Source of the DNA: Verrucomicrobiota bacterium
GTDB lineage: Bacteria > Verrucomicrobiota > Verrucomicrobiia > Chthoniobacterales > JAFAMB01
Assembly (NCBI GenBank): GCA_019247695.1
Contig: JAFBAP010000086.1
Location: forward strand, 1 to 46,894
DNA: 46,894 bases
Direction: 5' to 3'
Shown: positions 10,308 to 19,531 of the stretch, one piece after another
Layout of the letters: every line of letters begins with the position of its first letter
Position numbering within the stretch: the first letter of the stretch is position 1
Position numbers and translations under genes: made by a program
The notes under the pieces: generated by a model
Seen by the model: only the letters and a program-made list of their open reading frames with translations
Told to the model about the DNA's origin: nothing
Database searches by the model: none

Positions 10308-12119
10308 ATGGAAGACATCGTCGGAATTGACCTCGGAACCACGAACTCGCTCATCGGCGTCATGGACTCCGGCTTCCCCATCCTCATCGCGGATTCCGAA
10401 GGCCATCGCCTTACCCCTTCGGTGGTTTACTTTCCCAAGAACGGCGAGCCGGTGGTCGGCTGGGCCGCCGAGCGGATGCGTGCGGTGGCTCCGGAACAAA
10501 CCGTCTATTCCGTGAAACGGTTGATGGGACGGCGGCCGGGAGAGTCCGAGAAACCTGATTTCCCTTACCCGGTTAAGCAAACCGGCGGACAAATCGCCCT
10601 GGAGATGAACGGGCAATCGCTCCGGCCGGAGGAAGTTTCGGCGCTGATCCTTCGTAAGCTCAGCGCCAATGCCATGGCGGCGCTTGGGCGCGAGGTTAAG
10701 CGGGCGGTGATCACGGTCCCGGCTTATTTCAATGACCTGCAGAGGCAGGCAACCAAGCAGGCGGGCGAACTGGCTGGTTTGACGGTGGAAAGGATCATCA
10801 ACGAGCCCACTGCCGCCGCGCTCGCTTACGGGCTCGATCGCCTGAGCGACAAAGCCAAAATCGCGGTGTACGACTTTGGGGGCGGCACGTTCGACATTTC
10901 GATCCTGGAACTGCATAACGGCGTTTTTCGGGTGCTGGCGACCAACGGCAACACCCGCCTGGGCGGAGACGACATCGATCGGGAACTGGTGCGTCTGTTG
11001 AAAGACCGCCTTACCAGCCGGTACCCGGAGTTGCGCGCAGACCTGGAGGATCCCGTCTTCACGGCCCGGTTGCGCCAGATCGCCCATGACGCCAAAATCA
11101 GGCTATCTGAGGAAACGGCGGTTCAGATCGAGATTCCTTTTATCTCCAAGGCCCAAAGCTTTTCGTACCTGCTCAGCCGCCAGGAACTGGAGGCCGCCGC
11201 GCGTCCGATCGTACGGCGCACCCGGGCCCACTGTCTGCGTTCACTGGATGACGCCAAGCTCGACGCGCACCAACTCGATGAAGTGATTCTGGCCGGGGGA
11301 GTCACCCGGATGCCGGTTGTCCGGCAGTTTGTGGCCGAACTGTTCCAGCGCCTCCCTAACATCACCCAGAATCCTGATGAAGCCGTTGCGGTCGGCGCTA
11401 CGATCCAGGCGGGGATGCTTTCGGGCCACATCCAAAATGTGGTTCTGCTTGACGTTACCCCCCTGTCGCTGGGGATCGAGACGTTTGGCGGCTTGATGAA
11501 TGTGATCATCCCGCGCAATTCAACGATCCCCTGCAAGGCGGGTGAAATGTTCACCAATGCCGTCGCTAACCAGCGTTCCATGCAGATCAAGGTTCTCCAA
11601 GGGGAACGCGAGTTGGCCAGGGACAATTGGCAACTTGGTTCCTTCGAAATCGAATTTGATCCGGTGCCGAAGGGGACAGCCCGCGTCGGTGTGCAGTTCG
11701 AGATTGACGTCAACGGCATCCTGCACGTGCTGGCGCGGGATACCAAGAGCGGTCGACAGAAAGAGGTCGACCTCAGCAGCGCGGTCGACGTTTCCGACGA
11801 GGCCGTGGAAAAGATGATTGCCGAGTCGCTCGACCAGGCGTTTGCGGATATGGCCGAACGCGTCTGGACGGAAACCGTGCTGAAGAGCAACGAACTTTTA
11901 CCCGCCGTCCGGAGCGCATTGATGCTGGTGGGCCAACAATTGACGGCGGAGGAACGCGACCGTATCGCGGGCCTGGTGCGCGAGGTTGAATCGGCTTTGA
12001 CCACGCACCACGTCCAGCGGCTTAAAGCCGCCAATGAAGCGCTGGACAAGGGCACGCAGCACCTGGCCACGTTGCTGATCGACCGCGCGATGGCTGAAGC
12101 GGCCAAGCGGAAACGTTAA
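10308..12119 (+). CDS. hscA: Hsp70-family Fe-S assembly chaperone HscA
   Basis: This Hsp70 is dedicated to releasing clusters from IscU. I chose the ATG at MEDIVGIDLGTTNSL, giving 603 aa. A TTG nine bases upstream is the only other option. Visible are the phosphate-1 loop GIDLGTTNS, the connect/phosphate-2 region VYDFGGGTFDIS, VPAYFNDLQRQATK, IINEPTAAALAYGL and the adenosine motif VILAGGVTRMPVV. The interdomain linker VLLDVTPLSLGIET leads to a shorter substrate domain and lid than in DnaK (about 640 aa), consistent with HscA. Its neighbours are iscA and hscB. Its stop overlaps the convergent kinase stop in the palindrome TTAA. Confidence 0.9.
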   Translation: MEDIVGIDLGTTNSLIGVMDSGFPILIADSEGHRLTPSVVYFPKNGEPVVGWAAERMRAVAPEQTVYSVKRLMGRRPGESEKPDFPYPVKQTGGQIALEMNGQSLRPEEVSALILRKLSANAMAALGREVKRAVITVPAYFNDLQRQATKQAGELAGLTVERIINEPTAAALAYGLDRLSDKAKIAVYDFGGGTFDISILELHNGVFRVLATNGNTRLGGDDIDRELVRLLKDRLTSRYPELRADLEDPVFTARLRQIAHDAKIRLSEETAVQIEIPFISKAQSFSYLLSRQELEAAARPIVRRTRAHCLRSLDDAKLDAHQLDEVILAGGVTRMPVVRQFVAELFQRLPNITQNPDEAVAVGATIQAGMLSGHIQNVVLLDVTPLSLGIETFGGLMNVIIPRNSTIPCKAGEMFTNAVANQRSMQIKVLQGERELARDNWQLGSFEIEFDPVPKGTARVGVQFEIDVNGILHVLARDTKSGRQKEVDLSSAVDVSDEAVEKMIAESLDQAFADMAERVWTETVLKSNELLPAVRSALMLVGQQLTAEERDRIAGLVREVESALTTHHVQRLKAANEALDKGTQHLATLLIDRAMAEAAKRKR

Positions 12120-13387
12120 GAAACTCTCGGGAACCGCAGGATAAACGTGGCCCCCTGGCCGGGACTGCTTTCGACGCTGACCGTGCCCCCGAGCAGCTGC
12201 ATGGTGTGTTTGACGATGGACAGCCCGAGGCCGGTGCCTCCGGCGTCTCGCGAGCGGTCCTTATGGACACGATAAAACCGCTCGAAGATGTGCGGCTGAT
12301 CGCGTAGCGGGATACCCGGTCCGTTATCCGAAACCCGAAGGACGATGTCCTGGCCGTCGAGTTCAGCTGCAAGACTAAGGCGGAGCCCGGGTTGGCGGCC
12401 GTATTTGAGCGCGTTATCAATCAAGTTGGAAAGTGCCTGCTCGAGCCGCAAAGTGTCAGTGGTAAAGGTTAGCCCTTCCGGGGCCGAGACCGTAACCGAG
12501 ATGCCGGCGCCGGCCATCACGGGCTCGAATCGCTCCAGCGCTCGTTGGCAGAAGTCTCCGGCCGCCACCGTGCTGAGGTGCAGCGGCAAACGCCCCGATT
12601 CAAGCTGTGACAGGAGCAACAGGTTTTCCAATAACGCGTTCAGGCGCCTGGCGTGGCGGTACATCGTTTCCAGGAAGCGGCGCGTGCTTTCGGGGTCGAC
12701 GTCGGTCTCAAGCAGCGTTTCCAGGTAGCCGGACAGGATCGATAACGGAGTCCGCAGTTCATGGGAAACGTTGGCCACGAATTCCTTGCGGACCGCCTCG
12801 AGCGAACGGATTTGCGAGATGTCATGGAAAACCAGGAGAACGCCGTCGAACCCGCCCTGCTCGCCTGGCCGCAGACCCACCGAGGTAACTTGAAAATGCC
12901 GGGTGATGAACCCCTCCGCCTCGCGAAGTTCGATCTGCAGCTCCGCGGACTGCGCCGAGTCACTCTGCAACGTCCGTTCGATGACCTGATGCAGGAAATG
13001 GTTACGAAATGCCTCCATGACGGTGCGCCCCAACGGCGGCCGTGGAAGCAGAAACATCTCCTGGAGCCGCTGGTTGAGAAGACGAATCCGGAGCTGCCGG
13101 TCCAGGATCATGACGCCTTCAACCATGCTCGACAGGATTGCTCGCAGGCTGAAATCCTCCTCGGTAACCTGCCGGCCGATTTCGCGCAGCCGGGTTTCGA
13201 GTTGGTGGAGGTCTTGCAAAGTTGCCCGAACAACGGGCAACCCGCTGGAAAATTGATCCACTTCCCCTTGCCGGACCAGCTGCCGGACGTTATGCCTGAT
13301 GCGCAACAGTTGGCGCCAGAGCCAAACAACAAGCCCGGCCGTCACCAGTTCCAGCCACAGCCACGGCATCCACCCGGGCAGAGTCAC
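12116..13387 (-). CDS. PhoR-type membrane sensor histidine kinase
   Basis: This 423-aa protein has one N-terminal membrane segment (about residues 7-25), then a coiled linker, a PAS domain (about 80-195: MVEGVMILDRQLRIRLLNQ ... GVLLVFHDIS), a DHp domain with FVANVSHELRTPL (H209), and a HATPase domain with N box NLIDNALKYG, G1 DNGPGI, F box IFERFYRV and G2 GGTGLGLSIV. Layout and length are those of PhoR. It sits immediately downstream of its regulator with a 4-bp overlap. The signal cannot be deduced from sequence; no pst or phoU genes are in the window. Confidence 0.92.
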   Translation of the reverse strand: MTLPGWMPWLWLELVTAGLVVWLWRQLLRIRHNVRQLVRQGEVDQFSSGLPVVRATLQDLHQLETRLREIGRQVTEEDFSLRAILSSMVEGVMILDRQLRIRLLNQRLQEMFLLPRPPLGRTVMEAFRNHFLHQVIERTLQSDSAQSAELQIELREAEGFITRHFQVTSVGLRPGEQGGFDGVLLVFHDISQIRSLEAVRKEFVANVSHELRTPLSILSGYLETLLETDVDPESTRRFLETMYRHARRLNALLENLLLLSQLESGRLPLHLSTVAAGDFCQRALERFEPVMAGAGISVTVSAPEGLTFTTDTLRLEQALSNLIDNALKYGRQPGLRLSLAAELDGQDIVLRVSDNGPGIPLRDQPHIFERFYRVHKDRSRDAGGTGLGLSIVKHTMQLLGGTVSVESSPGQGATFILRFPRVS

Positions 13388-14073
13388 GGGTTCACGGCGG
13401 GTAGAAACCGGTACCCCTCGCCGCGCACCGTCACGATACGGTTCGCCGCAGGCCCGAGCTTCTCCCGCAGCCTGCGCACGTGCGTATCGACGGTGCGGGT
13501 ATCAATGACGTTCTCGTAACGCCAGACGTCGTGGAGCAACGTCTCGCGGCTAAGTGTCCGTCCGCGGCATTCGACCAGGGCGGCAAGGAGCTTGAATTCG
13601 GTCGTCGTCAGGTCCAAGCGTCTCCCGGAGACGGTGATCTCGAAATTGCTTTTATCGAGGCGAAACTCATCAACGACGATCAAACCGGAATGCTGCGCAG
13701 CCTTGAGACGGCGAAGCAGGTTCTGAGTTCGCAACACAATTTCCCGTGGGCTGAAGGGTTTGGTGATGTAATCATCCACACCGAGTTCCAAACCGGCGAT
13801 GCGATCCGCAGGCTCGGCTTTGGCCGTCAGCATGAGCACGGGAATAGCGGCGGTTTCTGCCTGGCGTCGCAGCATCCGCAGGACCTCAGTACCGCTCATC
13901 TGTGGCAGCATGACGTCCAGGATGATCGCATCAGGAAGATGAAGGCGTGCCAGCTCCAAGGCGGTAGGTCCGTCATCCGCCGCAAGGACCGTGAAATCGG
14001 CCCGATGCAGGTGATACCTGACCAGATCGACCACGTCGGGCTCATCATCGACCACCAGAATGCTTTCGCGCAT
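13384..14073 (-). CDS. OmpR/PhoB family response regulator
   Basis: This 229-aa protein is counted from MRESILVVDDEPD. An upstream in-frame extension is unlikely because the ATG used here is preceded by GGTGG. The receiver domain has the acidic pair DDE (9-11), phospho-acceptor D53 (LDVMLPQ), T/S in LMLTAKA and K in YITKPFSP. The C-terminal winged helix shows LTTTEFKLLAALVECRGRTLSRETLLHDVW and RTVDTHVRRLREKLG, ending VRGEGYRF. It is co-transcribed with the kinase that overlaps it by 4 bp. PhoB-like by architecture; the target genes are unknown. Confidence 0.93.
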   Translation of the reverse strand: MRESILVVDDEPDVVDLVRYHLHRADFTVLAADDGPTALELARLHLPDAIILDVMLPQMSGTEVLRMLRRQAETAAIPVLMLTAKAEPADRIAGLELGVDDYITKPFSPREIVLRTQNLLRRLKAAQHSGLIVVDEFRLDKSNFEITVSGRRLDLTTTEFKLLAALVECRGRTLSRETLLHDVWRYENVIDTRTVDTHVRRLREKLGPAANRIVTVRGEGYRFLPAVNP

Positions 14074-14604
14074 CTGTCCACCACGGTAGGGGGGACGGCT
14101 AACGCGATCAAGCAGTACAAAAAAAAGATCCGGGCTGCGCACGCCAAGGAGTAGAAGTCGAGAGAAATCGTGCGCAGACCCGAATCGCCTTAACCATTGA
14201 TTTCGACAGCGGTCGCCGGAAATTCGTTCAAAGATATATTCACAATTTTGATTGGCCCGGCAGCCGAAACCTGTCCCCCTTTCATTGACCCGTCCCTTTC
14301 ATGCGCCCCTGCAGAACGTGCGGCCTCGCTGAGCGGCTCAGGCCTGACCCGCCCTTGCGGCCTGTCCCCATTGAAGTGACGTGCCTCGACGCTGGAGGAA
14401 ATGGGTCAGGGCCCAACGCGGAGCCGGCGGCGAACGCCCTTACCTCAGCGTCATTGCGACCTGTCCCCGTTTTGATGCCCCACCCGGCGCTGGTTGATTC
14501 GCTCCAGGCCTTGACGTGCCGATCAACGTTCCGTCCCTCTCTCCCGGACAACAATCGACACCCGCAGCCCGGGCATCGATATCGCCGTGGCGCTCGCTCC
14601 GGCC
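14074..14604. other. 531-bp gene-free stretch with CCTGTCCCC motifs
   Basis: I see no convincing gene. Three CCTGTCCCC copies (14270, 14361, 14460) are spaced about 90-100 bp apart, and related sequence follows each (for example ATTGA or TTTGATG). The same motif recurs at 19823 in the accessory region. The stretch separates the phoB-like promoter from the 3' end of the CheX gene, so it carries at least one promoter reading leftwards. An AT-rich patch lies at 14226-14252. I cannot place a confident -35/-10 pair. Confidence 0.6.
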
Positions 14605-15051
14605 CTACTCCAAACAGACCAGCAGGTAGGCGTGCTGATTGCGCCAGACGAGCGGCACCACGTAGTTGCGTGCATTTTCCGGAAATGGAAAATCAAAGTT
14701 CTGGCCGGTCACCACCACGGGTACGGTGATCAGAAAATTCTTGCCGAACTCCTCGCGCGCGTTGCCGCTGAGGGTATTGGCGATTTCACCCGCAAGGTCG
14801 CGGATCGCGTTCTCATCCTTGGGCTCATCATGGAGTTCCGCCAGGATTTGCCGGAGAAGGTCGCTGTTGGTTGTGAAACAGACAACGCCTTTGGCTCGAC
14901 CGGAAATCGAAATGATGCCGGTGTATTCAAGAAAGGGTTCAACGCGGTTCTTGACAAACGGCGGTTCGATGACCAGCGGCGACGAAGGGTCAACGGAGTG
15001 GAAGTAACGGCGTGCACAGGTGATAAAGACCTGAATGTCTTCGTCTTTCAT
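14605..15051 (-). CDS. cheX: CheX-type phosphatase domain protein
   Basis: This 148-aa protein is counted from MKDEDIQVF. It has the CheX/CheC fold signature: GRAKGVVCFTT, then LAGEIANTLSGNARE with the conserved acidic-x-x-Asn pair (E89, N92) and GN (96-97), and FLITVPVVVTGQNF. Family members dephosphorylate CheY-P. It is the third gene after the receptor-kinase and the stand-alone receiver, 4 bp beyond the receiver stop, so it most likely resets that receiver. No chemoreceptor or flagellar genes are nearby. The exact start is uncertain because no Shine-Dalgarno is visible. Confidence 0.85.
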   Translation of the reverse strand: MKDEDIQVFITCARRYFHSVDPSSPLVIEPPFVKNRVEPFLEYTGIISISGRAKGVVCFTTNSDLLRQILAELHDEPKDENAIRDLAGEIANTLSGNAREEFGKNFLITVPVVVTGQNFDFPFPENARNYVVPLVWRNQHAYLLVCLE

Positions 15052-15055
15052 GGGG

Positions 15056-15415
15056 TTAATCCGAAAGCAGGAGATGAAATGCTTCCCGCAATTCATCCGC
15101 ATTGATCGGCTTGCAGAGAAAACCGCTGGCGCCCCGTTTGATGGCGTCGATGGCCGTGGCGCGATCCCGCAATGCCGAGATGATTAACACGCGTGCGGCG
15201 GGATTGATCTGCAGGATTTTGTCAAGACAGGTTAAACCGTCCATCTTGGGCATCGTGATGTCCAGGGTGACCACGTCATGGCCCTTCAGGGAGTAAAGCC
15301 GCACTGCTTCCTCCCCGTTCTCCGCCTGATCAACTTCGGTGATCTCACCCGCGCTGAGGTCGCGTTCGATCGCGCGTCGTACTACGCTTGAATCGTCTAC
15401 GATAAGCAATTTCAT
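15056..15415 (-). CDS. Single-domain CheY-like response regulator
   Basis: This 119-aa receiver has no output domain: MKLLIVDDSS (acidic pocket D7-D8), phospho-acceptor D52 in LDITMPKMDG, switch residue in LIISALRD, and conserved Lys in FLCKPINADEL. Its start overlaps the kinase stop by one base. It probably takes phosphate from the CheA-like kinase upstream and is reset by the CheX protein downstream. What it binds when phosphorylated is unknown. Confidence 0.93.
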   Translation of the reverse strand: MKLLIVDDSSVVRRAIERDLSAGEITEVDQAENGEEAVRLYSLKGHDVVTLDITMPKMDGLTCLDKILQINPAARVLIISALRDRATAIDAIKRGASGFLCKPINADELREAFHLLLSD

Positions 15416-18400
15416 TAGACCGGCAGTTCCACCATAAAACGCGTGTATTGCCCTGGTTTGGTCTCGACGTCAATCCTGCCGCCGAGCCAGCAAAGCAAGT
15501 CATTAACGGCGTCCAAGCCCACCCCCCTCCCACCGTCGGGTGAAGGCTCCAGCAGCGTCGTAAAGCCGGAAGCGCATAAAATGTCGATGGCCTGTTCTCG
15601 ATTCAAGGTGTCCGGCGCATCCGGCGGCAGCATTTTGAGCTCAACCGCCCGTTGCCGCAGCGCCGGGAAGTTAAGCCCGGATCCGTCGTCTCGGACAGAG
15701 AAAAGCAGCAGCTTCGGGCCTTTACGACGTCCCGTTATTACGATCGAACCGGCAGGCGGCTTGTCGCGGGCCACCCGCTCCGCAGGCAGTTCGATACCAT
15801 GGATTATCGCGTTGCGCACAAGTTGAGCCAGCACACTCTGAACCGGACGGCGCAGCCGGTCCGGCAAGGTCAGCAAGGCAGGTTCAACATCAAGCTTCAC
15901 ACAAACCTGCTTCCCGTTTCGGGCAGCAACATCAACGGCTAGGTTAGCTAGGGCACCAAAATCGCCGTCTTTGCCCGACCCCTGGTTACGACCGAATACG
16001 CCCTGCATGCTGACGAGCCGCTCAATCAAGTCGCGCGTCATCTTCACCTGGTCAAGCAAGGAGGCTAAAGCCGTGGTAATCGGGACAAAGTGCTCCCCAA
16101 CCAACTGAGGGTTTTGTCTGGCAGCGCCGATCTTGTTTTCGAGTTGGTGCGCAAGCGTTTCAAAATACGAAAGCCGCAACATGGCAGCGTTTCCCTTGAT
16201 CACGTGAATGGAGCGTCCGATTCGCTGCAGGAGCCGCCCGTAACGCTGTTCCCGCTCGGACAGGGATTCGGCTGAAGGCCGTGCGTGCTGTTCGGCTTCC
16301 AGGTTTTGTAATACCTCCCTGATCTCGCGGTCCGTATCTTCCAGGAAATCGGACAGAATGGCCGAATCCACATGCAGGATGCCGAACAGCATTTCAACTT
16401 CGAGCCGCGCGTTCACCTGATTTTCGCGGATCTGACGGCCAAGGGAAATCCGTGAGGTCGCGTCGACCACAGTCACCATGATCTGACTGATCTGCCCGGC
16501 TTCCAACACCCGGTTAAAGCAGAACTCGAGGAATTTAGTCCGGGGTCGCCCGCCTTTGTCGCAAAAATGAAACTCAACTTCATTCAGCGGGTTAGTCTGC
16601 CGGATCAGTTTCTCTTTCACGCGCGGGTTTAACAAAAGTTCAAGGTAACTTTCGGCCGCGGCAAGTTCGTCTGTCGATAAAACCGCCCATGACCACTGTC
16701 CGGGAACGGGCCGGATCAGGTCAAGGAAGTTGAGACCTACAATTTTACGATGAAAGATCTCTTCCGTGGCGTGAGAGTAGCCCGGCTGGATGGTAAGTTT
16801 TCGATCAAGCAGGAACAATCCCTCATTAACCGTCTCGAAAATCTTCCGCATCTGGCGTCCATGATCTTCGATCTGGTCGATCATGTGGTTGAAACGTTCC
16901 GCCAGAAACCCGATCTCGTCCGTGCTTGAGATTGGGGTGCGGGCCGAGAGGTCGCCGGCGCCGATCTTCTCGGCTGTCGCCACCAATTGCGCAATCGGGT
17001 GTGACAAGATCTGTGCAAAGACCAGGGTGCTGCCAATCGCCAGAACGAGAATCGCGGCGCCTCCGCAGGCAATCAACCGGGTCAGGCGAGCGGCCGGCGC
17101 AAAAGCTTCTCCCGTGTCGATCCGGATCACGAGTCCCCAGTTGAGCTCCGGGATTGGCAAGGGTGCATACACGCCGAGGGATTCATGACCCAGTTCATCA
17201 TAAAAGGTGACCTCACCCTCATTGTTTGGGTTATTACCGGAAAAGATGTTTTCGACCGCGGCATTGGAAAGCGGGGCCGTCAGGAGCGACGTTTGGAAGC
17301 TTCTCAGACCGTCAGGCGTGTAAGTCTCGGCACGATACCGGGCAGGGAGGCGGTCGGCAAAACGGGACTCGGTGCGCAATCGCCGATCCGCCCCGACGAT
17401 ATACGCTTCACCGGAACGCCCCAGCCCGACCTGCTGCCAATGACGATCGAACGTCACCAAGTCAGTGAATGAGACGCTGGAGATTTCGTGCACCAGCACG
17501 CCCATGCGGCTGCCTAAACGGTTGGTAATCGGCGCGCCGAAAAACATCATTGCCGCGTTATACGCCGCCGGGTACTTCGCCAGATCACTCACCACCACGT
17601 GGTTAGTGCTGCCGCGATTCGCTTCCGTGAGTGGAACGTACCATGCGCCCAGGAAGATGCGCTTGAGGCTGGCCTGATTCTGCCAGCCCTTGAACACGTT
17701 GGTGCCGAAGTCCCAACTCTTCTTGAACGAGTAAATAACGTTGCCGAGATCGTCCACAAGGAGCAGGTCGTCGTACCGGTTGCGCTGGACCACGGATTGA
17801 AATGACTCGTGATACCGGTCCATGGCGCGTGCGAACATGGTTTTGGCAAAAGCTGAACGGAAAGTGGGTGCGAGCGCAGTGTTGGCCGCAATCTCATCGG
17901 ACGTGTTGTTGAGGTATTTGTGATCGATCGAGGCAGGATTCTTTAAAAAGTAAACGTACTGCAGCACCAAGCCTTCCCGGCTCACATCCGCAAAGGTTCC
18001 ATAATCCGGCGCTTCACCGCCGGGAAGGCTCAGGGCCGCAAGGAGATGATTCCGGTAAGCTTCGTTCAACTCCGTTCTGATCTGATCAAAAAACGCCTGA
18101 TCAACTCTGAAACCGCCGGCCGCCAAATCGTCCAGCAAATGTTCGTAGCCGGCCGCAAGCTCGGAAATGGCATACCGGCAGGTTTGCATTTCGGCTTGCG
18201 TCGCGATGCTGCGCCGGGCGGTATCAATGGCGGTATTGATGGTCTCAGCCAGCGACCGCCGCAGCGAGCGGAAGCCCTCCAGACGCGTCGTTCGCAACGA
18301 CACGGCCGAAAGAAAGAATGCCGTGGTGGTGAGTGCCACCAGGATGAAGCTGCAGATCGCCGCGGTAAAAAACAGCAGCTTGAAGCGGATCGTCAACCCG

Positions 18401-18456
18401 CGAGAGGGTAAACTCGCAAAGGTTAACTGCTCCTCCCTGGATCTCGCTCCGGCCAT
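15415..18456 (-). CDS. Membrane receptor fused to a CheA-type histidine kinase
   Basis: The protein has 1013 aa from the ATG at 18456. In that numbering the order is: transmembrane helix (about 25-52); a large periplasmic region of about 400 residues, probably Cache-like (VLVHEISSVSFTDL, GRSGEAYIVGADRRL, PELNWGLVIRID); a second helix (460-485); HAMP (about 485-530); a PAS-like segment (535-670); an Hpt/P1-like helix with SIHVIKGNAAML (His near 751); and a CheA-type ATPase domain with LVRNAIIHGIE, DDGSGLN and GRGVGLDAV. No CheW-like P5 domain follows, so it does not look able to dock to a normal chemoreceptor array. Upstream ATGs at 18546 and 18579 would overlap the preceding gene, so the start is tentative. 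A single-domain receiver and CheX follow. Confidence 0.88.
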   Translation of the reverse strand: MAGARSREEQLTFASLPSRGLTIRFKLLFFTAAICSFILVALTTTAFFLSAVSLRTTRLEGFRSLRRSLAETINTAIDTARRSIATQAEMQTCRYAISELAAGYEHLLDDLAAGGFRVDQAFFDQIRTELNEAYRNHLLAALSLPGGEAPDYGTFADVSREGLVLQYVYFLKNPASIDHKYLNNTSDEIAANTALAPTFRSAFAKTMFARAMDRYHESFQSVVQRNRYDDLLLVDDLGNVIYSFKKSWDFGTNVFKGWQNQASLKRIFLGAWYVPLTEANRGSTNHVVVSDLAKYPAAYNAAMMFFGAPITNRLGSRMGVLVHEISSVSFTDLVTFDRHWQQVGLGRSGEAYIVGADRRLRTESRFADRLPARYRAETYTPDGLRSFQTSLLTAPLSNAAVENIFSGNNPNNEGEVTFYDELGHESLGVYAPLPIPELNWGLVIRIDTGEAFAPAARLTRLIACGGAAILVLAIGSTLVFAQILSHPIAQLVATAEKIGAGDLSARTPISSTDEIGFLAERFNHMIDQIEDHGRQMRKIFETVNEGLFLLDRKLTIQPGYSHATEEIFHRKIVGLNFLDLIRPVPGQWSWAVLSTDELAAAESYLELLLNPRVKEKLIRQTNPLNEVEFHFCDKGGRPRTKFLEFCFNRVLEAGQISQIMVTVVDATSRISLGRQIRENQVNARLEVEMLFGILHVDSAILSDFLEDTDREIREVLQNLEAEQHARPSAESLSEREQRYGRLLQRIGRSIHVIKGNAAMLRLSYFETLAHQLENKIGAARQNPQLVGEHFVPITTALASLLDQVKMTRDLIERLVSMQGVFGRNQGSGKDGDFGALANLAVDVAARNGKQVCVKLDVEPALLTLPDRLRRPVQSVLAQLVRNAIIHGIELPAERVARDKPPAGSIVITGRRKGPKLLLFSVRDDGSGLNFPALRQRAVELKMLPPDAPDTLNREQAIDILCASGFTTLLEPSPDGGRGVGLDAVNDLLCWLGGRIDVETKPGQYTRFMVELPV

Positions 18457-18472: not shown

Positions 18473-19207
18473 CTATCGGCTTGGCAGGCCGATCTGTTGA
18501 GTCGGAACCAGTCTACCGTGAGAGATTTGCGTGAGAAAAACCGCATAATTCCTCTGCTGGAGGTTCCCGTCGAAGCCAAACATTAATGGGCCACAGGTAA
18601 AGATTCCGTTTGCAAGGCCGTTGATCAAGGCCGGACCCGCGTTTTGCAGGGCCGCAACGAAAACGCGCGCACCGGCATAGCCTTCCAAACTCGCGTGCGT
18701 GAACTGCCTGTACCCTCGGACGATCATATCCGCCTGGTAATCCCGGACCAGCTCCGAACCTGAGCCCGGAGGAAACGGCATTACCTGCGATCCGATCACG
18801 CCCCCGGCGCGAGGCCCCGGCACACGTTGCACGTATTCCAGGTCAACGTTTGATGCACAGCATAAAATCAGGGGGCGGCCGGCTTGCCTCCGGGCATACC
18901 GGATCAAATGCGCGCATGCCGCATCCGCGCCGAACAGGATGACGGCCTCAGGGTCTCCGTCCATAACCCGGCTAAACGCTTCCTGTACTTCCACCGTGTT
19001 CCGAACGTAATCACCTTCAGACACCATCTGCAACGAATGCGCGGATAAAGCGGCCCGCAGTACACAAATGTTGAGCAACAGCAGCAACCCGCAAAACTGA
19101 ATTCGGGCGTAAACAGGTCCAATACGGTAAACGCAATTACGCAATCTGATTCCTGTCTTTTTGCCTTCGCCTTCGGATTTTGTCAAAGCTAACGCAATAC
19201 GGCGCAA
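18473..19207 (-). pseudogene. C-terminal half of a Leu/Ile/Val-type periplasmic binding protein
   Basis: The frame is open for 244 codons, but only residues from about 53 onward resemble ABC-transporter type I binding proteins: LSAHSLQMVSEGDYVRNTV, AVILFGADAACAHLIRYARR, GGVIGSQVMPFPP, ASLEGYAGARVFVAALQ, FDGNLQQRNYAVFLTQI. The first lobe (about 150 residues) is missing. The 50 residues in its place include a hydrophobic run (FCGLLLLLNICVL) that could act as a signal anchor. I read it as a truncated gene, possibly retained as a ligand-binding half. It ends 16 bp before the receptor-kinase start, so it was or is the first gene of that operon. Confidence 0.65.
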
Positions 19208-19455: not shown

Positions 19456-19531
19456 GGTGGTCGTAGCTCAACGGTAGAGCCCTGGATTGTGGTTCCAGTT
19501 GTTGCGGGTTCGAATCCCGTCGGCCACCCCA
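19456..19531 (+). tRNA. tRNA-His (anticodon GTG)
   Basis: This is a full cloverleaf. The acceptor stem GTGGTCG pairs with CGGCCAC. The D arm contains AGCTCAACGGTAGAGC. The anticodon stem CTGGA/TCCAG encloses loop TTGTGGT with anticodon GTG. The T arm is GCGGG TTCGAAT CCCGT. The base before the stem is G (the -1 G typical of tRNA-His) opposite discriminator C, and CCA is encoded. It stands alone at the left edge of the repeat-rich accessory stretch, a typical insertion site, but I found no second copy of its 3' end. Confidence 0.97.

Follow-up and report, generated by a model that had tools for sequence, protein, structure and literature searches.

A membrane-bound kinase with a CheA-type P1-P4 core, encoded with its own receiver and CheX phosphatase in a Verrucomicrobiota genome

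We analyzed a 46,894-nucleotide stretch of DNA from a Verrucomicrobiota bacterium (contig JAFBAP010000086.1, positions 1 to 46,894, assembly GCA_019247695.1; hereafter, the window), centering on a signaling operon on its minus strand that encodes a transmembrane kinase, a stand-alone receiver, and a CheX-type phosphatase. The assembly (G000) comprises 5.19 Mb in 191 contigs and is 96.7% complete. The three genes are tightly packed: the kinase stop codon shares 1 nucleotide with the receiver start, and 4 nucleotides separate the receiver from CheX. An earlier annotation made from the letters of the window (the sequence-only reading) had placed all three genes correctly. The kinase begins with an ATG at 18456, although a longer in-frame TTG start at 18579 is possible. 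The genes and the regions of the kinase are as follows (window coordinates):

15415..18456, minus strand: transmembrane CheA-type sensor kinase, 1013 residues (Pfam, tree, PDB match, alignment)
18304..18378, minus strand: transmembrane helix 1, approximately residues 27-51 (hydrophobic run identified by eye)
17077..18303, minus strand: periplasmic helical and dCache sensor (a weak dCache_1 match, E 1.5e-4, below its Pfam cutoff; alignment with methyl-accepting chemotaxis proteins [MCPs] and cyclases)
17008..17076, minus strand: transmembrane helix 2, approximately residues 461-483 (hydrophobic run identified by eye)
16864..17019, minus strand: HAMP domain (Pfam PF00672, 1.9e-15)
16477..16839, minus strand: PAS-like region (pattern similarity by eye; common to a P4-less paralog and the L132 and L133 homologs)
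16006..16365, minus strand: P1/Hpt four-helix bundle, residues 698-817 (Pfam Hpt 5e-8; AlphaFold2 crop, predicted local distance difference test score [pLDDT] 81)
16204..16206, minus strand: predicted phospho-acceptor His751 of HxxKG (invariant in 13 aligned homologs and alignment A3)
15418..15966, minus strand: P4 ATPase domain, residues 831-1013, the C terminus of the protein (PDB match, Z 22, tree)
15056..15415, minus strand: stand-alone CheY-like receiver, 119 residues (Pfam Response_reg 8.6e-27, alignment)
14605..15051, minus strand: CheX-type phosphatase with ExxN (E89, N92) (Pfam CheX 2e-19, PDB relatives)

The ATPase domain of the kinase is of the CheA type. It matched HATPase_c in Pfam (2.1e-10), and the closest solved structures in a PDB sequence search were Thermotoga CheA P4 domains (1.7e-22; 29-30% identity to P4 of T. 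maritima CheA). An IQ-TREE phylogeny was built from 55 ATPase domains; a branch with 100/100 support separated all 12 HisKA kinases in the set from the CheA-type domains, the window P4 among them, and the window kinase sat among 15 P5-less proteins (support 93/91). Consistent with this placement, an AlphaFold2 model of residues 660-1013 (pLDDT 80.8; predicted template-modeling score 0.79) matched CheA P4 structures with Z scores of 20-22, compared to about 16 for HisKA kinases. The assignment made in the sequence-only reading is thus upheld by both the tree and the structural comparison, neither of which groups the domain with ordinary hybrid kinases. We dropped an ordinary hybrid kinase as an identification on the basis of the position of P4 outside the HisKA clade; a Pfam search of the kinase also returned no HisKA (DHp) domain.

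Two parts of CheA are missing from this kinase. The absence of a CheW-like domain had been recognized previously and is clear: P5 is lacking, no Pfam CheW match was obtained, and the protein ends 0 residues past P4. The absence of P3 had been overlooked. No Pfam match to the P3 dimerization hairpin was found in the kinase; moreover, P3 is a two-helix domain of about 60 residues (PMC10782961), and the interval between P1 and P4 is too short to hold it. The predicted phospho-His lies 131 residues from the N-box Asn in the window kinase, within the range of its close clade (120-136 residues); this spacing is 161-170 residues in a second group lacking P5, and all P5-containing CheAs of the set in which both motifs were found have 208-985. 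In the AlphaFold2 crop, the four-helix P1 is joined to P4 by a 13-residue disordered linker. According to a survey of 13,673 CheA sequences, P1, P3, P4, and P5 are present in all, and CheA is a kinase without a sensor domain that needs P3 to dimerize and P5 and CheW for control by receptor arrays (PMC10782961). Because the survey's domain set is incomplete here and CheA is described as sensorless, the window protein is made of CheA catalytic parts, yet it is not CheA by definition.

The kinase carries a sensor of its own. Alignments of the sensor-plus-HAMP part to MCPs and to adenylate cyclases covered 95-100% of it (E values ranging from about 1e-27 to 1e-17), and for this reason we regard the periplasmic sensor as real and the kinase as a receptor in the homology sense. 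The PAS-like region proposed in the sequence-only reading stands as a pattern similarity seen by eye; since it had no Pfam match at E 0.05, the term is used as a description only. AlphaFold2 applied to the whole kinase (alignment of 12 sequences) gave a mean pLDDT of 48.6 and left the sensor and PAS-like region without a resolved fold. Among related loci, the sensor type varies (dCache in the window, PilJ in L055 and L133) while the core is constant.

Residues expected of a working phosphotransfer system are retained in all three proteins. Alignment with family homologs showed that the His751-x-x-K-G, N-box, DDG, and GRG-x-GL motifs of the kinase are kept, with H, K, and G of the P1 motif invariant in alignment A3. 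The receiver, which has no output domain (alignment and Pfam), retains D7, D8, D52, S80, and K102. CheX scored 69.9 bits in Pfam against a cutoff of 27, matched CheX relatives in the PDB at 2e-7 to 2e-3, and carries E89 and N92 of ExxN, the motif of active CheX, both invariant in alignment A2. Computed against a genome of the same genus, the ratio of nonsynonymous to synonymous substitution rates (dN/dS) was 0.105 for the kinase (0.046 for its P1 region), 0.043 for the receiver, and 0.015 for CheX. All three genes are under strong purifying selection, and a pseudogene reading was dropped on these values.

The gene order is also conserved. A search for it, as suggested in the sequence-only reading, found kinase, receiver, and CheX contiguous in 10 of 10 family genomes with the kinase (the window and L046-L054). 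The same order recurs in two loci of G056 and in G099 and G424, the only other genomes with strong P1 matches in a phylum sample of 387; G020 has it with one DUF4388 gene between receiver and CheX. In spirochetes, the order is receiver-CheX-kinase at L067 and kinase-CheX-receiver at two further loci (L072 5457-9956 and L076 5793-10265), where a diguanylate cyclase gene follows (GGDEF was assigned in L072, and the L076 gene is near-identical to it). Tandem CheX genes were seen at L055, L056, and L132, the second copy having an altered ExxN Asn (e.g., GEIASTIASNARE), which suggests from sequence that this copy could be a non-catalytic partner. Farther afield, a Campylobacterota operon (L089 3921-7869) holds genes for a solute-binding protein, two receivers, and a membrane kinase that is CheA-like and lacks P5, with similar proteins encoded on either flank, and a kinase-related Hpt-ATPase protein lies near a diversity-generating retroelement (Avd and reverse transcriptase) on an Ideonella dechloratans plasmid (L135 3909-11128). 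Finally, a membrane paralog without P4, found only in the window's genus (L130 4061-5725 on contig C99 of G000, and L131 in G001), has similar PAS-like and P1-like regions; it retains the His, has lost KG and has no ATPase domain, and adjoins a hybrid kinase with two receivers. It is possible that this paralog is a heterodimer partner or a phosphate acceptor.

In most family genomes, the operon is not accompanied by a chemosensory array. The lack of MCP and CheW genes nearby, noted previously, extends to the whole window genome, in which profile searches returned 0 CheW (PF01584), 0 MCPsignal, and 0 FliG_C matches (CheB and CheR were not searched). Likewise, the proposal of signaling without a receptor array holds genome-wide, with neither CheW nor MCP in nine of the ten module-bearing family genomes; the exception, G001, has che genes of its own. 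CheW was not found in G020 or G424 either, and FliG_C was found in none of 11 family genomes by profile search.

Two neighbors of the operon bear on its input and possible connections; the first as a fourth gene of the operon, together with its damage, and the conservation of the second were not noted in the sequence-only reading:

18473..19207, minus strand: Peripla_BP_6 binding-protein gene remnant, 16 nucleotides upstream of the kinase (N-lobe deleted)
12116..14142, minus strand: PhoB-PhoR two-component pair (Pfam; context only)

In five relatives, an intact Peripla_BP_6 protein of about 400 residues is encoded directly upstream of the kinase; the window copy has lost its whole N-lobe through an in-frame internal deletion, and the remnant is less constrained than the three signaling genes (dN/dS 0.203). 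At L055 and L089, too, the kinase has a binding-protein gene in front of it (PBP_like_2 and SBP_bac_3, respectively). A periplasmic binding-protein gene is part of the ancestral operon, and by sequence comparison, the ancestral input may have been a loaded binding protein. In the window genome, sensing by the kinase is probably direct or by way of some other protein. The PhoB-PhoR pair adjoins the operon in most family genomes and in G020, which belongs to another family (the loci are the window, L047, L048, L050-L054, and L057). A tRNA-His gene lies just upstream of the binding-protein remnant (19457-19531, plus strand).

Candidates for the output came from relatives. At sister loci, a conserved fifth gene follows kinase, receiver, and CheX (L055 10439-11209, L056 9296-10009, L057 9936-10691, and L132 9827-10651). 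Its product (A5) has a winged-helix-like N terminus and a short domain, GQxxVYRxF, that matched no family, and fused versions occur at G013:C10 and G056:C55. We consider this gene a candidate output. The spirochete GGDEF neighbor hints at cyclic di-GMP; no such gene adjoins the window operon. Type IV pili were also considered as an output; matches to the PilT family in the window's family were weaker and non-specific (best E about 1e-92, whereas most other families reach 1e-125 or better).

Taken together, these data make it likely that the operon encodes a self-contained two-component circuit, in which a CheA-type P1-P4 unit on an MCP-style receptor signals to its own receiver and CheX serves as the off-switch. 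A ligand would be bound outside the cell, ancestrally perhaps with the aid of the co-encoded periplasmic binding protein, and HAMP and a coiled coil would relay the signal to P1-P4. Because P3 is missing, dimerization would fall to the receptor part, and because P5 is missing, CheW and receptor arrays would be unneeded. Judging from the conserved residues, P4 would phosphorylate His751 on P1, which would hand the phosphoryl group on to receiver residue Asp52; CheX, through E89 and N92 of its ExxN motif, would strip it off again, so that the signal would be short-lived. Since the receiver has no output domain, it would presumably act by binding a partner protein, one other than the flagellar motor. 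The "complete small signalling circuit" of the sequence-only reading is therefore sustained in that its parts are co-encoded, with catalytic residues intact under purifying selection; "complete," however, goes too far. On balance, though with less assurance, we also favor the view that P3- and P5-less CheA P1-P4 membrane receptors with a receiver and CheX, operating without arrays, CheW, or adaptation enzymes, form a distinct class in which sensors can be swapped.

Several observations weigh against this interpretation. The family operon contains no gene dedicated to output, and the fifth gene was rejected as the output of the window circuit, being absent from the window's family. The damage to the binding-protein gene means that the input may have changed in the window genome. 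In some distant P5-less proteobacterial relatives (L077, L078, L081, and L083), the P1 phospho-His is replaced, making the same phosphotransfer route impossible there. Lastly, the absence calls are based on metagenome-assembled genomes that are 70-97% complete; a single absence of this kind is weak evidence, and the agreement of nine genomes is strong evidence.

Other explanations were weighed against the self-contained circuit. Single-domain receivers can serve as shuttles, and the window receiver might relay phosphate to another Hpt protein or to a regulator; conceivable recipients include the P4-less paralog on contig C99, the hybrid kinase beside that paralog, and PhoB-PhoR. The occurrence of an ATPase-less, P1-like paralog beside a two-receiver hybrid kinase in both the window genome and G001 is in keeping with such a relay, as is the conservation of PhoB-PhoR next to the operon in more than one family. 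Nevertheless, we consider it unlikely, given that the paralog was detected only within the genus whereas the three-gene set is family-wide, and a dedicated CheX is easier to reconcile with a receiver at the end of the pathway than with a reversible shuttle. Less probable still is that the module feeds into an ordinary chemosensory pathway as an accessory, with the receiver sharing its output with a standard CheA array. Such a role is conceivable in G001, G056, G099, and the spirochete and proteobacterial relatives, which hold both the module and CheW-based systems; however, CheW and MCPs are absent from the window genome and eight other module-bearing family genomes, CheW is absent from G020 and G424, and the family has no FliG.

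We give least credence to the idea that the operon is a remnant, now decaying, of a chemotaxis system that has been lost, which seems very improbable. Although the binding-protein gene in front of the kinase has lost its N-lobe, the strong purifying selection on the three genes (dN/dS 0.015-0.105) already contradicts decay; in addition, the catalytic motifs are intact, the gene order is kept across genera and families, and the kinase stands apart in the tree from P5-containing CheAs of the same order.

The self-contained circuit combines features of several known systems. Like CheA, the window kinase has a CheA-type P4 and an Hpt/P1 domain with HxxKG, and it is partnered by a CheY-like receiver and CheX; unlike CheA, it lacks P3 and P5, is fused to a membrane sensor, and resides in a genome without CheW or MCPs. 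Its layout of sensor, transmembrane helices, HAMP, PAS-like region, and kinase in one chain beside a cognate receiver resembles that of HisKA membrane kinases with HAMP such as PhoR, which differ from it in that it has an Hpt bundle as phospho-acceptor, a CheA-type ATPase, and a dedicated CheX. The helical/dCache sensor and HAMP are the same as in MCPs and HAMP adenylate cyclases, but PAS-like-P1-P4 replaces the MCPsignal hairpin or cyclase. CheX shares its sequence family (CheX/CheC) and ExxN motif with Thermotoga and Desulfovibrio CheX, yet it occurs without flagella, MCPs, or CheW. The second P5-less group (L072, L076, L085, and L089) also has a CheA-type P4 without P5, and the L072 and L076 operons hold CheX and a receiver; its members are distinguished by their longer His-to-N-box spacing (161-170 residues), a separate tree branch, and, at L072, the downstream GGDEF gene. 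CheA-CheC/CheX fusions have been described from Leptospirae and belong to the F1 CheAs (PMC10782961). No description of P5-less or membrane CheA-like kinases was found in the open-access papers searched, subscription papers not being covered.

The archaeal part of the CheA survey was collected through the CheW domain (PMC10782961); P5-less kinases would therefore escape it, and any survey that gathers CheA in this way would miss such proteins. The comparative case is strong that a CheA catalytic core is used here in the manner of an ordinary membrane sensor kinase, paired with a CheX of its own. With its own sensor and neither P3 nor P5/CheW, the family suggests that evolution has wired P1-P4 straight to a receptor. 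If the circuit works, the needs of CheA chemistry would be separable from the needs of array control, HAMP control of an Hpt-ATPase pair could be studied in a small natural system, and CheX would serve a pathway without flagella.

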